Shown piece by piece: positions 30,762 through 35,750 of a DNA stretch of 42,299 nt. Origin of the DNA: Chloroflexota bacterium. GTDB lineage: Bacteria; Chloroflexota; Anaerolineae; UBA1429. The translations under genes were made by a program, and so were the position numbers. Every line of letters starts with the position of its first letter. Positions within the stretch are counted from its first letter, which is position 1. A model generated the notes under the pieces. That model made no database searches, was not told the DNA's origin, and saw only the letters and a list, made by a program, of their open reading frames with translations. The stretch covers positions 1-42,299 of the forward strand of contig JAAYED010000037.1 in NCBI GenBank assembly GCA_012728955.1, in the 5' to 3' direction.

Positions 30762-32564
30762 ATGCTCTATCCACAACAGAACGCCCTGCGCAATGTGCTG
30801 GACCTCTCGGGCATCTGGCAGTTTCAGCCGGATCCCGAGGGACGGGGGCTGGCCGCCGGCTGGGCCCTGGAGCTGGAGGACCCGCGCCCCATGGCCGTGC
30901 CCGCCTCCTGGAACGAGCAATACGCTGACCTGTTCAACTACTTTGGCCTGGCCTGGTACCTGCGCCGCACCTGGGTGCCCGCAGGCTGGCGCGGCCAGCG
31001 TGTCTGGCTGCGGGTGGGCTCGGCCTGCTATCAGGCCACGGTTTATGTCAATGGCGTTCCGGTAGCCAGCCACACCGGAGGGCACCTGCCCTTTTGCTGC
31101 GACATCACCGAGCAGGTGCGCTGGGACGAGCCCAACACCATCGCCATCAGCGTCGAAAACGAGTTATTGCCCGACCGCGTGCCCGCCGGCGGCCACAGCG
31201 ATCTCGGCCTGGGGGGCTACCCGCCCACCACCTATGACTTTTTTCCTTATGCGGGGCTGCATCGTCCGGTGCTGCTCTATTCACAGCCCCCAGTGGCCAT
31301 CGAGGACATTGCCGTGTCCACCGAGCTGGAGGGCGGCGACGCGCTGCTGCGGGTGGTCGTGCGCGCCGGTGGAGGCACCACACTGGGCAGCGTCACCTTG
31401 AGCGGCCACGGGGAGCCGATCGGCGCCGGACTGTCCTTTCAGGACGGGGGCGCCACCGTCCAGCTGAGGGTGCCCGAGGCGCGGCTCTGGTGCCCCGCCG
31501 ATCCCTGGCTCTATGAGCTCACTGTCCACACCGCCACCGACAGTTACACCCTGCCGGTGGGCCTGCGCACGGTCAAGGTCACAGAGAGTGCCCTGCTGCT
31601 CAACGGGCAGCCGGTGCGGCTGGATGGCCTCGGCCGGCACGAGGACTTTTATGTCAGCGGCAAAGGCCTCAACCTGCCTCTGCTGGTCAAGGATTACCAG
31701 CTCATGCGCTGGCTGGGGGCCGGCAGCTATCGCACCAGCCACTATCCCTATTCAGAAGAGGAGATGCAGCTGGCGGACCGCATGGGCATGTTGATCATCG
31801 ACGAGGCCCCGGCCGTGTCGCTTCAGTTTCACGACGAGGCGCTGCTGCCCGGGCTGCTGCGCCAGTGCCTGGCCGGGCTGGACGAGTTGATCGCGCGGGA
31901 CAAGAACCACCCCTCGGTGGTGATGTGGAGCGTGGCCAACGAGCCGCTGCCCGCCAGCCTGCGGGCCCGCCGGGGCGCCCCTTTGGCGGATGCCGAGGCA
32001 GCGGACGAGCACGGGCGCGTCTTTTTGACCACGCTGCTGCGCCGGGCCCGCGCGCTGGATCCCACCCGCCCCGTCACGCTGGTGGCCGTGATGGGCGCTC
32101 CCGACTCGTGGCAGGCCGAGGCGGACGTGATCTGCCTCAACCGCTACTGGGGCTGGTACGTAGATTCCGGCCAGCTGGCGCCGGCGCTGGCGCATCTGGG
32201 CGAGGAGCTGGACGCCAAGTGGGCCCACTTTCATCGGCCGCTGATGGTCACCGAGTTTGGCGCCGACACGCTGGCCGGGCTGCACGGCGAGCCGCCGGTG
32301 ATGTGGACCGAAGAGTATCAGGCCGAGCTGGTGCGCGGCTATCTTGCCGTGGCCGCCAGCCGGCCCTTTGTCATCGGCATGCAGGTCTGGAACTATGCCG
32401 ATTTCGCGGCCGTGCAGGGCATCAACCGGGTGGGCGGCATGAACTTGAAGGGGGTGTTCACCCGCGCCCGCCAGCCCAAGCTCGTGGCTCATGTGCTGCG
32501 CGAGCTGTGGGCCCGCAGGGAAACCGCCTCCGGAACGAGCGGTGTGGATCAACTACCAGAATAG
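30762..32564 (+). CDS. uidA: beta-glucuronidase, GH2 (600 aa)
   Basis: This enzyme releases D-glucuronate from beta-glucuronides. The order is a jelly-roll domain (N-terminus MLYPQQNALRNVLDLSGIWQ, then ASWNEQYADL), an immunoglobulin-like middle domain, and a TIM barrel. The acid/base Glu394 lies in WSVANEP and the nucleophile Glu498 in MVTEFGADT. Asn561 and Lys563 form the NxK motif (GMNLKGVFTR) that binds the glucuronate carboxylate, which separates true glucuronidases from beta-galactosidases. Length is standard. No signal peptide is seen. The ATG has a GGGGGGA stretch 5 nt upstream. It is the first gene of a four-gene hexuronate operon. Confidence 0.93.
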   Translation: MLYPQQNALRNVLDLSGIWQFQPDPEGRGLAAGWALELEDPRPMAVPASWNEQYADLFNYFGLAWYLRRTWVPAGWRGQRVWLRVGSACYQATVYVNGVPVASHTGGHLPFCCDITEQVRWDEPNTIAISVENELLPDRVPAGGHSDLGLGGYPPTTYDFFPYAGLHRPVLLYSQPPVAIEDIAVSTELEGGDALLRVVVRAGGGTTLGSVTLSGHGEPIGAGLSFQDGGATVQLRVPEARLWCPADPWLYELTVHTATDSYTLPVGLRTVKVTESALLLNGQPVRLDGLGRHEDFYVSGKGLNLPLLVKDYQLMRWLGAGSYRTSHYPYSEEEMQLADRMGMLIIDEAPAVSLQFHDEALLPGLLRQCLAGLDELIARDKNHPSVVMWSVANEPLPASLRARRGAPLADAEAADEHGRVFLTTLLRRARALDPTRPVTLVAVMGAPDSWQAEADVICLNRYWGWYVDSGQLAPALAHLGEELDAKWAHFHRPLMVTEFGADTLAGLHGEPPVMWTEEYQAELVRGYLAVAASRPFVIGMQVWNYADFAAVQGINRVGGMNLKGVFTRARQPKLVAHVLRELWARRETASGTSGVDQLPE

Positions 32565-32574
32565 AGGAGCAGGC

Positions 32575-33399
32575 ATGGACAGGCAGATTCGGGGCTGGTA
32601 CGACTTTACGGGCAAGGTCTTTGTGGTTACCGGGGGCTCGGGCGCCCTGGGCTCGGAGCTGGTGCGCGCCCTGGTGGGCTGCGGTGCCGATGTGGCCGTG
32701 CTGGGCCGCAGCACCCAGCGGGCGCAGCCGCTGCTGGACGAGCTGGGCAGCGACCACCTGGCGGCCATCGCCGCCGACGTGCTGGACCGCGAGAGCCTCG
32801 AGGCGGCGGCCGCGGCGGTTCAGGAGCGCTTTGGGCCCCTGTACGGGCTGGTCAACGCCGCCGGCGGCAACCACCCACGGGCCACCAGCACCCCCGATCT
32901 CAGCTTTTTCGACCTTCCGGAGGATGCCCTGCGTCACGTGCTGGACCTGAACCTGCTGGGCACCCTGCTGCCCTGCCAGATCCTGGGCAAGGGCATGGCC
33001 GAGCGCGGCGAGGGCGTCATCGTCAACTTTTCCTCCATGAACTATTACCGGCCCCTCACCCGCGTGGTGGCCTACTCGGTGGCCAAGGCGGGGGTCAGCA
33101 ACCTCACTCAGTGGCTGGCGGTGCACATGGCCAAGAACTATGGCCCCGCCATCCGGGTCAATGCCATCGCCCCGGGCTTTTTCCTCGGCGAGCAGAACCG
33201 CTACCTGCTCACGGAGGAGGGCACCGGCGCCCTCACCGCCCGCGGCCAGACCATCATCGACCACACCCCCATGGGCCGCTTTGGCGAGCCCTCGGACCTG
33301 ACGGGCACCCTGCTCTGGCTGCTCTCCCCCGCCTCGGCCTTTGTTACCGGCATCACCGTGCCGGTGGACGGCGGGTTCAGCTCATTTGGAGGTGTCTAG
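32575..33399 (+). CDS. uxuB: SDR-family D-fructuronate reductase / D-mannonate oxidoreductase (274 aa)
   Basis: A classical short-chain dehydrogenase: Rossmann loop VVTGGSGALGSEL, NAAGG, catalytic Ser in NFSSMNYYRP, YSVAKAG (Tyr-Lys), then IAPGFFLGEQNRYLL and GITVPVDGGFSSFGGV at the C-terminus. The extended GEQNR region and the ending match the SDR-type UxuB/YjmF enzymes, which reduce D-fructuronate to D-mannonate with NADH. It replaces the unrelated long-chain UxuB of E. coli. GAGGAG lies 5 nt before the ATG at 32575, 10 bp after the uidA stop. The context (glucuronidase before, KDG kinase after) supports the assignment. Confidence 0.85.
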   Translation: MDRQIRGWYDFTGKVFVVTGGSGALGSELVRALVGCGADVAVLGRSTQRAQPLLDELGSDHLAAIAADVLDRESLEAAAAAVQERFGPLYGLVNAAGGNHPRATSTPDLSFFDLPEDALRHVLDLNLLGTLLPCQILGKGMAERGEGVIVNFSSMNYYRPLTRVVAYSVAKAGVSNLTQWLAVHMAKNYGPAIRVNAIAPGFFLGEQNRYLLTEEGTGALTARGQTIIDHTPMGRFGEPSDLTGTLLWLLSPASAFVTGITVPVDGGFSSFGGV

Positions 33400-34671
33400 A
33401 TGACCGAGTGTGAGGCCGTCATCGGCATCGGGCAGGCCGATGCCCTGCTCTCGCAGGAGCAGATCGAGACCATCATGCAGGAGGGACTGGGGCGTCTTGC
33501 CGTGGACGGGCGCCGCGTGCTGATCATCATCCCCGACGGCACCCGCACCATGCCCGTCAAGCGCTTCTACGACCTCTTTCGCTCCCTGCTGGCGCCCCGC
33601 GTCGAGACCATGGACTATCTCGTGGCGCTGGGGACCCATCGCCCCATGGATGACGCCGCCCTCTCTGAGCTGATCGGCTATCCGGTGCGCGACGGCCGCT
33701 GCCATGAGAGCCGCATCCTCAACCACCACTGGGACGATCCCGACAGTCTGGTGCAGCTGGGCACCATCCCCGCCGCCGACATGGAGACCCTCACCCGGGG
33801 GCTGCTGGTGCGCGACGTGCCGGTGCGCCTCAACCGCCTGATTCTGGATTATGACCAGATCATCATCTGCGGGCCAGTGTTCCCCCACGAGGTGGTGGGC
33901 TTTTCGGGCGGCACCAAGTACCTCTTTCCCGGGATCGCCGGCGCCGAGATCATCAACTTTACCCACTGGCTGGGCGCCGTGATGACCAACTATGCCATCA
34001 TCGGCTCGGGCTATACGCCGGTGCGCGCCGTCATCGACCGTGCCGCCTCACTGGTGCCCACGCCGCTGGCCAGCTGTTGCCTGGTCACCACCTCTGCCGG
34101 CGTGCACGGCCTGTACTTTGGCCGCCCCGAGCTGGCCTGGGAGGCCGCCTCGGAGCTCTCCTCGCAGGTACACATCGTCTGGCTGGATGAGCCGGTGCAG
34201 CGGGTGCTTTCGGTAATGCCCACCCTGTACGATGACCTGTGGACCGCCGCCAAGGGCATGTACAAGCTCGAGCCCGCCGTGGCCGATGGCGGCGAGGTGG
34301 TGATTTATGCCCCGCACATCACCGAGGTGAGCTATACCCATGGCCGCCTGCTGGACGAGATCGGTTATCATTGCCGCGACTATTTCCTCAAACAGTGGGA
34401 TCGCTTCAAGGACTATCCGGGGGGCGTGCTGGCCCACTCTACCCACTGCAAGGGCCTCGGCGAGTACGATCCGGTCACCGGCGTCGAGACCCCCCGGGTG
34501 ACGGTGACGCTGGCCACCGGCATCCCCCGTGAGCGCTGCGAGCGCATCAACCTGGGGTATCTGGATCCCGCCACTATCGACATCCCCGCGTGGCAGGCCC
34601 GCGCCCAGGAGGGCGTGCTGGTGGTGCCCCGCGCTGGCGAAATGCTGTATCGAATCAGGAGGCAAGCATGA
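33400..34671 (+). CDS. LarA-type nickel-pincer racemase/epimerase homologue (423 aa)
   Basis: The protein is a member of the LarA (DUF2088) family, whose lactate racemase uses a nickel-pincer nucleotide cofactor. All known functional residues are visible: His80 in ALGTHRP, His163 in FPHEVVGFSGG, Lys173 (cofactor attachment) in GTKYLFPG, and His189 (nickel ligand) in NFTHWLG. The PDGTRT element also fits. The ATG starts directly after the uxuB stop (TAGATG) and the end overlaps the kinase gene by four bases, so it belongs firmly to the hexuronate operon. This suggests epimerisation at C2 of a sugar acid rather than lactate racemisation. Cofactor genes larB, larC and larE are not in the window. 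Confidence 0.85.
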   Translation: MTECEAVIGIGQADALLSQEQIETIMQEGLGRLAVDGRRVLIIIPDGTRTMPVKRFYDLFRSLLAPRVETMDYLVALGTHRPMDDAALSELIGYPVRDGRCHESRILNHHWDDPDSLVQLGTIPAADMETLTRGLLVRDVPVRLNRLILDYDQIIICGPVFPHEVVGFSGGTKYLFPGIAGAEIINFTHWLGAVMTNYAIIGSGYTPVRAVIDRAASLVPTPLASCCLVTTSAGVHGLYFGRPELAWEAASELSSQVHIVWLDEPVQRVLSVMPTLYDDLWTAAKGMYKLEPAVADGGEVVIYAPHITEVSYTHGRLLDEIGYHCRDYFLKQWDRFKDYPGGVLAHSTHCKGLGEYDPVTGVETPRVTVTLATGIPRERCERINLGYLDPATIDIPAWQARAQEGVLVVPRAGEMLYRIRRQA

Positions 34672-35750
34672 AGTACGGACTGAATCTCAAGGCCGAGGGC
34701 GCACTGGACCTGCTCTCGGTGGGCGCCCTGGTGCACCGGCTCGATCCGGGGGTGATCCCCTTTCGCAAGGCCAACCAGTGCATCATCCACGTCAGCGGGG
34801 GCGAGTTCAACGTGGCCGCCAACCTGGCCGATTGCTTTGGGCTCAAGACGGGGGTGGCCACCGCCATGGTAGATTACCCCATCGGCGACCTGATCGCCGA
34901 GCGCGTGCGGGCCATGGGCGTCAAGCCCTTTTACAAGCATTTCGCCCACAACGGCGTCACGGGGCCCAACATGGCCACCGTGTTCAGCGACCGGGGTCAG
35001 GGCGTGCGCGCCCCCGTGGTGTTCTACAACCGTTCGGATGAGGCGGCCGCGCGCCTCAAGGCCGGCGATTTCGACTGGGACGCCATTCTCGCGGGGGGCG
35101 TGCGCTGGTTCCACAGCGGCGGCATTTTTGCAGCCCTGTCGCGCACCACCAGCGACGTGATCATCGAGGGCATGCAGGCCGCCAAGGCCCAGGGCGCGGT
35201 GATCTCCTTTGACCTCAACTATCGCGCCAAGCTGTGGAGCCTGTGGGGCGGCGCCGAGGCCGGCGTGGACATTGTGCGGCGCATCGTGCAGAACGTGGAC
35301 GTGCTGGTGGGCAACGAGGAGGACCTGCAGATGGGCCTGGGCATCCCCGGCCCCGAGGTGCAGGCCACCTCCAAGCTGGACCCGCAGGCCTTTGTGGGCA
35401 TGATAGACCGGGTGACGGACATGTTCCCCAACGTCAAGATCGTGGCCACCACCCTGCGCGAGGTGCACTCGACCAACCGGCATTCCTGGAGTGCCGTGGC
35501 CTGGATCAACGGCCAGACCTTTCAGGCGCCCACCATGGAGCTGGACGTTTACGACCGGGTGGGCGGCGGCGATGGCTTTGCCTCGGGCCTGTTCTATGGC
35601 CTGATGACCGGCGAGCCGGAGCAGACCGCGGTGAATCTCGGCTGGGCCCATGGCGCGCTGATCACCACCTACCCCGGCGACACCACCATGGCCACGCTGG
35701 AACAGGTGCGCGCCCTGAGCAAGGGCGGCTCGGCCCGCATCCAGCGCTGA
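34668..35750 (+). CDS. kdgK: 2-keto-3-deoxygluconate kinase, PfkB family (360 aa)
   Basis: A ribokinase/PfkB-type sugar kinase expected to phosphorylate KDG to KDPG, the step before cleavage to pyruvate and glyceraldehyde 3-phosphate. Visible are the glycine pair region HVSGGEFNVAANLADCFGLK, the SFDLNYRAKLW motif characteristic of KDG kinases, DVLVGNEEDL, and the ATP/anion-hole motif VGGGDGFASGLFYGL with the catalytic aspartate. At 360 residues it is somewhat longer than many KdgK proteins (about 310-340). AGGAGG lies 6 nt before the ATG, which overlaps the previous stop (ATGA). It is the last gene of the operon. Confidence 0.9.
   Translation: MKYGLNLKAEGALDLLSVGALVHRLDPGVIPFRKANQCIIHVSGGEFNVAANLADCFGLKTGVATAMVDYPIGDLIAERVRAMGVKPFYKHFAHNGVTGPNMATVFSDRGQGVRAPVVFYNRSDEAAARLKAGDFDWDAILAGGVRWFHSGGIFAALSRTTSDVIIEGMQAAKAQGAVISFDLNYRAKLWSLWGGAEAGVDIVRRIVQNVDVLVGNEEDLQMGLGIPGPEVQATSKLDPQAFVGMIDRVTDMFPNVKIVATTLREVHSTNRHSWSAVAWINGQTFQAPTMELDVYDRVGGGDGFASGLFYGLMTGEPEQTAVNLGWAHGALITTYPGDTTMATLEQVRALSKGGSARIQR

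Follow-up and report, generated by a model that had tools for sequence, protein, structure and literature searches.

A probable GntE-type nickel-pincer epimerase in a glucuronidase-led operon of a Chloroflexota bacterium, and a predicted PfkB gluconokinase route

The presence of a LarA homologue inside an operon for glucuronide utilisation raises the question of which substrate such an enzyme would act on, and where its product would go. The locus lies in a window of 42,299 nucleotides (the whole stretch of DNA analysed here), which is contig C316 of a 2.64 Mb assembly that is 89% complete. Our analysis indicates that the gene probably encodes a GntE-type, nickel-pincer-nucleotide (NPN) dependent D-mannonate/D-gluconate 2-epimerase, which would feed a predicted PfkB gluconokinase route; we infer the substrate and direction of the epimerase, and the substrate of the kinase, from the protein family and its residues, the operon and its conserved context, the cofactor genes and the kinase subfamily, as described below. 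The operon is compact, with the order uidA-uxuB-larA-pfkB and the LarA homologue as its third gene:

30762..32564, + strand: uidA, GH2 beta-glucuronidase, which frees glucuronate (PRK10150, Pfam GH2 domains)
32575..33399, + strand: uxuB-type SDR, D-fructuronate reductase / D-mannonate oxidoreductase (PRK08277)
33400..34671, + strand: gntE-type LarA homologue, predicted NPN-dependent D-mannonate/D-gluconate 2-epimerase (PF09861, residues, match to 4NAR)
34668..35750, + strand: PfkB-family sugar kinase, predicted gluconate 6-kinase (PF00294, subfamily, context, Tyr89 to Val)

UidA passes the cut-off of NCBIfam PRK10150 (553 bits, cut-off 544) besides matching the Pfam GH2 domains, and the SDR has as its best model PRK08277, D-mannonate oxidoreductase, again above the cut-off (334 bits, cut-off 281). 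A sequence-only reading of this DNA had described the LarA homologue as coupled to its neighbours on both sides, and this is borne out: the TAG stop of uxuB ends at 33399 and gntE begins at 33400, and an ATGA at 34668-34671 overlaps the TGA of gntE with the start codon of the kinase gene. Ribosome-binding sites precede the uxuB, gntE and kinase genes, the one ahead of uxuB (32575) being GAGGAG. On the 5' side of the operon NCBIfam and Pfam profiles identify a GH3 glycosidase gene, and 3' of the kinase lie an opposite-strand sulfatase, an FAA-hydrolase-like protein and sugar ABC transporter genes.

The open reading frame at 33400-34671 starts with ATG and encodes 423 amino acids that score 91.2 bits against Pfam Lar_N PF09861 (gathering cut-off 23.3). 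His80, His163, Lys173 and His189 are all found where the sequence-only reading had placed them, and Asp46, Arg49 and Lys285 complete the set. By alignment, R49, K173 and H189 form the NPN-binding set and D46, H80, H163 and K285 the catalytic one; in the order D46, R49, H80, H163, K173, H189, K285 these residues correspond to D72, R75, H108, H174, K184, H200 and K298 of LarA and to D38, R41, H73, H154, K164, H180 and K287 of 4NAR, and all seven are invariant among 127 homologues. Foldseek, run on an AlphaFold model with a pLDDT of 92, returned 4NAR as the best solved match (TM 0.89; the next 0.78, with lactate racemases behind), and the sequence search of solved structures likewise placed 4NAR at the top (E=2.1e-67), followed by lactate racemases at E about 1e-9. 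This structure is that of GntE2/LarAH20 of Thermotoga maritima, which was shown in 2020 to convert D-mannonate to D-gluconate in vitro, with a KM for D-mannonate of 17 mM and a kcat of 197 (PMC7583248). The window protein shares with GntE2 the LarA fold, every NPN and catalytic residue, an acidic residue after the second catalytic His and an Ala-His pair in the alpha14 region, but the two are 34% identical and Val165 stands in place of Ser156 of GntE2.

With regard to specificity, the GntE signature consists of E, V, A and H at the positions of LarA F175, F176, W358 and T359 (PMC11770544), and the window protein carries E164, V165, A345 and H346, a combination that is well kept among the 127 homologues (E in 127/127, V in 119/127, A in 125/127, H in 125/127). 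In addition, W281 fits the Trp in alpha11 that, together with loop features, is common to LarAH groups 18-20 (PMC7583248). The best NCBIfam model is NF052594, the LarAH18 putative hexonate epimerase (178 bits, E=2e-52), which likens the protein to LarAH group 18 and to GntE1/LarAH19 of Corynebacterium glutamicum; its score is far under the curated cut-off of 500, however, which rules out membership and leaves it outside the equivalog as curated. Lactate racemase LarA belongs to the same superfamily and has in common the NPN cofactor and the two-histidine mechanism, but its substrate residues are F, F, W and E/Q, the window protein reaches 80.9 bits of the 460 needed for NF033504, and a separate gene, on contig C30, encodes the LarA-type protein of this genome (469 bits). 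On model scores and signature together we reject a lactate or malate racemase; activity on lactate alone, which the sequence-only reading had named as refuting its proposal, is likewise made improbable by the GntE signature and the poor match to the racemase model.

The sequence-only reading had pointed to larB, larC and larE as genes to look for elsewhere in the genome, and they are indeed present, as LarE (280 bits, cut-off 150), LarB (249, cut-off 175), LarC2 (155, cut-off 50) and LarC1 (213, cut-off 90) all exceed their curated cut-offs; the first three are grouped on contig C173, and LarC1 is found on C75. The genome holds five LarA homologues, including the window copy. Of the other four, C27 has a second gntE, 49-50% identical to the window copy, C30 the lactate racemase type, C185 a group-22 isomerase and C195 a protein resembling LarAH14/15/16.

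A LarA-type hexonate 2-epimerase in uronate catabolism, as had been suggested for this gene, is in keeping with the GntE signature and the gene context, but its novelty did not hold, as the epimerase and the mannonate-to-gluconate bypass are already known from Thermotoga, where a gluconate/mannonate 2-epimerase GntE was proposed in 2012 for uronate catabolism (as reported in PMC7583248 and PMC6978723). The T. maritima operon reads gnd-uxaR-uxaE-uxaD-gntE-gntK (PMC3750489), and the likeness extends to a setting of uxaE, uxuB-type SDR, gntE, kinase and gnd. The window operon differs in being led by uidA, in having a PfkB kinase in place of gntK and in lacking gnd, the only gnd found in the genome being on C27. 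We found no description in the open-access literature of a glucuronidase-led operon with a PfkB kinase in the gluconokinase position.

In the route that we propose, UidA would release glucuronate from glucuronides, as its family suggests, and glucuronate would be isomerised to fructuronate, a step for which no UxaC was found in the genome. UxuB, again judging by family, would reduce fructuronate to D-mannonate, and the LarA homologue would then invert C2 to give D-gluconate, with the NPN cofactor accepting the hydride, a 2-keto acid as the transient intermediate, and His80 and His163 serving as the two acid/base groups. The coupled PfkB kinase would phosphorylate gluconate to 6-phosphogluconate, as its context suggests, and Gnd, encoded on C27 alongside the second gntE, would convert the latter to ribulose-5-phosphate. 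Such a route would bypass mannonate dehydratase, KDG kinase and KDPG aldolase.

The absence of uronate isomerase and mannonate dehydratase from the operon, also noted in the earlier reading, is correct for the window; in the genome, UxuA is present on contig C6 (TIGR00695, 206 bits, cut-off 199.55) and a profile search found no UxaC (PF02614). An assembly gap is an unlikely explanation for the latter, as none of the 15 genomes of family f1, several of them 97-99% complete, gives more than a weak UxaC hit (less than 33 bits), if it gives any. Because these genomes carry uxuB-gntE-gnd operons, mostly with uxaE, despite having no true UxaC, the uronate isomerase of this family should be a non-orthologous enzyme.

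The coupled kinase had been taken for a KDG kinase, and here our results diverge from that assignment. In Pfam the protein matches PfkB PF00294 only, with no match to the GntK P-loop or FGGY families, and its best Foldseek matches belong to the ribokinase/PfkB family, the nearest solved relatives being KDG kinases. It shares with KdgK (TM0067, PDB 2AFB) the PfkB fold (TM 0.85), the catalytic GxGD motif and most substrate-contact positions. Nevertheless, its scores against KDG-kinase models are 121.5 bits (cut-off 440), 72 bits (cut-off 400) and 30 bits (cut-off 400), each well below what is required. On C136 the genome encodes a KDG kinase of its own, whose gene adjoins that of KDPG aldolase and whose product is 36% identical to the window kinase. 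This enzyme, too, falls short of the strict cut-offs, yet it scores far better, with 222 bits against the cut-off of 440 and 110 against that of 400, and by one and the same model it reaches 501 bits against 235 for the window kinase. Upstream of the two C136 genes lies a 348-aa protein without NCBIfam match (L192:7151-8197, - strand).

Gene neighbourhoods separate the two kinds of kinase further. A search of 150 relatives seeded with the kinase found nine close proteins, our own included (78-82%), after which identity falls to 36-38%; in seven of the eight other genomes the close kinase lies by gnd and/or gntE and in none by KDPG aldolase, the exception following uidA instead, whereas the 36%-identity group adjoins KDPG aldolase. 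When the window-type subfamily is taken as a whole (70-82% identity), a member has gnd and/or gntE beside it in 21 of the 22 places where one occurs, and KDPG aldolase beside it in none, although the adjacency to gntE is partly a matter of ascertainment, as most members beyond the kinase-seeded set were found via gntE. Counting deduplicated proteins, gnd is the immediate neighbour of 13/22 window-type kinases and of 0/19 of the KDG-kinase type (p=3e-5), and KDPG aldolase the neighbour of 0/22 and 16/19, respectively (p=9e-9). Gene orders seen include uidA-uxaC-gntE-pfkB in genome G104 and uxaC-uxuB-gntE-pfkB in G062; in G045 a window-type PfkB kinase follows uidA by 27 bases, with no gntE nearby (L241:8545-11432, + strand).

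We take the KDG contacts of Thermus thermophilus KdgK to be G34, Y89, Y103, R105, I134 and R167. Five of these six positions (G34, Y103, R105, I134 and R167) are kept in the window kinase; the sixth, that of Y89, is Val in 22/22 window-type and Tyr in 19/19 KDG-kinase-type proteins, and many other fixed differences set the two types apart. Context, the altered contact residue and scores far lower than those of the C136 enzyme thus argue against the KDG kinase label, and, judging from the context of its subfamily and the change of Tyr89 to Val, the window kinase most likely makes 6-phosphogluconate, as a predicted gluconokinase. A profile search found no P-loop GntK in this genome; FGGY kinases are present in 23/23 genomes checked, where the TIGR01314 screen does not discriminate gluconokinases. 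We consider it somewhat more probable than the contrary that the coupled PfkB enzyme founds a family of gluconate 6-kinases (or mannonate 6-kinases) apart from GntK and FGGY, and that together with the nickel-dependent GntE it makes up a route that leads from glucuronides to 6-phosphogluconate without any dehydratase in Chloroflexota, Acidobacteriota (Terriglobia) and others. No description of a PfkB-type gluconokinase was found in the open-access literature.

Other ways of arranging the same enzymes deserve consideration. In a variant of the Entner-Doudoroff type, the LarA homologue would make gluconate (or mannonate), from which UxuA or a gluconate dehydratase would form KDG, and the PfkB enzyme would be a KDG kinase after all. 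The genome does encode both a KDPG aldolase and a true UxuA, KDG kinases are the nearest solved relatives of the window kinase, and at loci L196 and L197 gntE is accompanied by KDPG aldolase and a true KDG kinase. Against these stand the failed KDG-kinase cut-offs and the 36% identity to the genome's own KDG kinase, the Val found in every window-type protein, and the neighbourhoods, with gnd beside 13 of the 22 and KDPG aldolase beside none; we regard this variant as unlikely, even if it is the least unlikely of the alternatives.

The order of the last two steps could also be inverted, so that the PfkB enzyme would phosphorylate mannonate, and 6-phosphomannonate would then be turned into 6-phosphogluconate by the LarA homologue. 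Mannonate kinase and 6-phosphomannonate 2-epimerase activities, not linked to genes, were in fact reported in cell extracts of Lactobacillus suebicus (PMC6978723), where the route likewise joins mannonate to 6-phosphogluconate but phosphorylation comes ahead of epimerisation. The end product predicted from gene context is the same either way, so that context cannot tell which step comes first; free mannonate, however, is the substrate of GntE1, GntE2 and LarAH15 (PMC7583248, PMC11770544), which makes phosphorylation first rather improbable. The epimerase might, lastly, act one step earlier, inverting C2 of fructuronate to yield 5-keto-D-gluconate, which the SDR would reduce to gluconate with no change in the net route. 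Fructuronate is likewise a 2-hydroxy acid, and the next-best models of the SDR are glucose 1-dehydrogenase and gluconate 5-dehydrogenase; yet the best model, and the one passed above its cut-off, is mannonate oxidoreductase, characterised GntEs use mannonate, and no LarA homologue acting on a keto-hexonate is reported in the literature surveyed, so that we give this possibility very little weight. We therefore retain epimerisation of free mannonate followed by phosphorylation of gluconate as the preferred reading. Rejecting the KDG kinase assignment, a likely misannotation in which a kinase named by similarity probably makes 6-phosphogluconate, would mean that the route is no longer of the Entner-Doudoroff type but leads to 6-phosphogluconate and on to pentose phosphates, with pentose phosphate and NADPH rather than pyruvate and triose phosphate as the predicted outcome.

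The sequence-only reading had proposed conservation of the gene order in relatives as a check, and the order uxuB-gntE together with sugar-acid genes is indeed widespread. We sampled 80 gntE loci from named genomes plus further loci from 150 relatives, and among the 72 that were deduplicated and well flanked, the genes near gntE were uxuB (52), gnd (39), uxaE (27), a HAD protein (22), PFK (19), a PfkB kinase (16), uxaC (14) and an FGGY gluconokinase-like gene (5), so that gntE relatives retain the Thermotoga gene set of uxaC/uxaE-uxuB-gntE-gnd plus a kinase. PfkB, PFK and FGGY kinases never overlap among these loci (PfkB vs PFK, p=0.008), but we take this mutual exclusion as no more than a hint, given that each label is clustered on the tree and at least 2 of the 16 'PfkB' loci (L196 and L197) are of the KDG-kinase type. 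The C27 gntE sits in a uxaE-uxuB-HAD-gntE-gnd arrangement typical of its family. The tree indicates that the genome carries two gntE operons with different histories, because the window copy falls in another clade than the C27 copy, one that is separate, well supported and rich in PfkB operons; the placement of 4NAR in this tree is unreliable owing to its long branch.

If our reading is correct, a nickel-dependent bypass from mannonate to gluconate would be common in environmental bacteria and would serve glucuronides besides pectin. Inositol carbon may drain through GntE too, as iolN and/or iolO are linked to gntE in loci L054, L056, L062, L070 and others. The HAD-superfamily protein lies between uxuB and gntE in its 22 loci (e.g. 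L130:5579-6586, - strand), has no NCBIfam match and shows strong co-occurrence (odds ratio 42) with a phosphofructokinase (PF00365) encoded downstream of gnd. In G002 and G010, of the same family, a dehydratase-type glycyl radical enzyme (L140:8038-11138 and L146:11213-14291, both - strand) precedes uxuB-HAD-gntE-gnd-PFK in the usual position of uxaE; it has CVE and RIGGY motifs, is under every specific NCBIfam cut-off, and is adjoined by a radical-SAM activase gene (checked in L140, the layout being alike in L146). A further glycyl-radical-enzyme-like gene (L246:12808-15168, - strand) is found on C6, the contig that bears uxuA.
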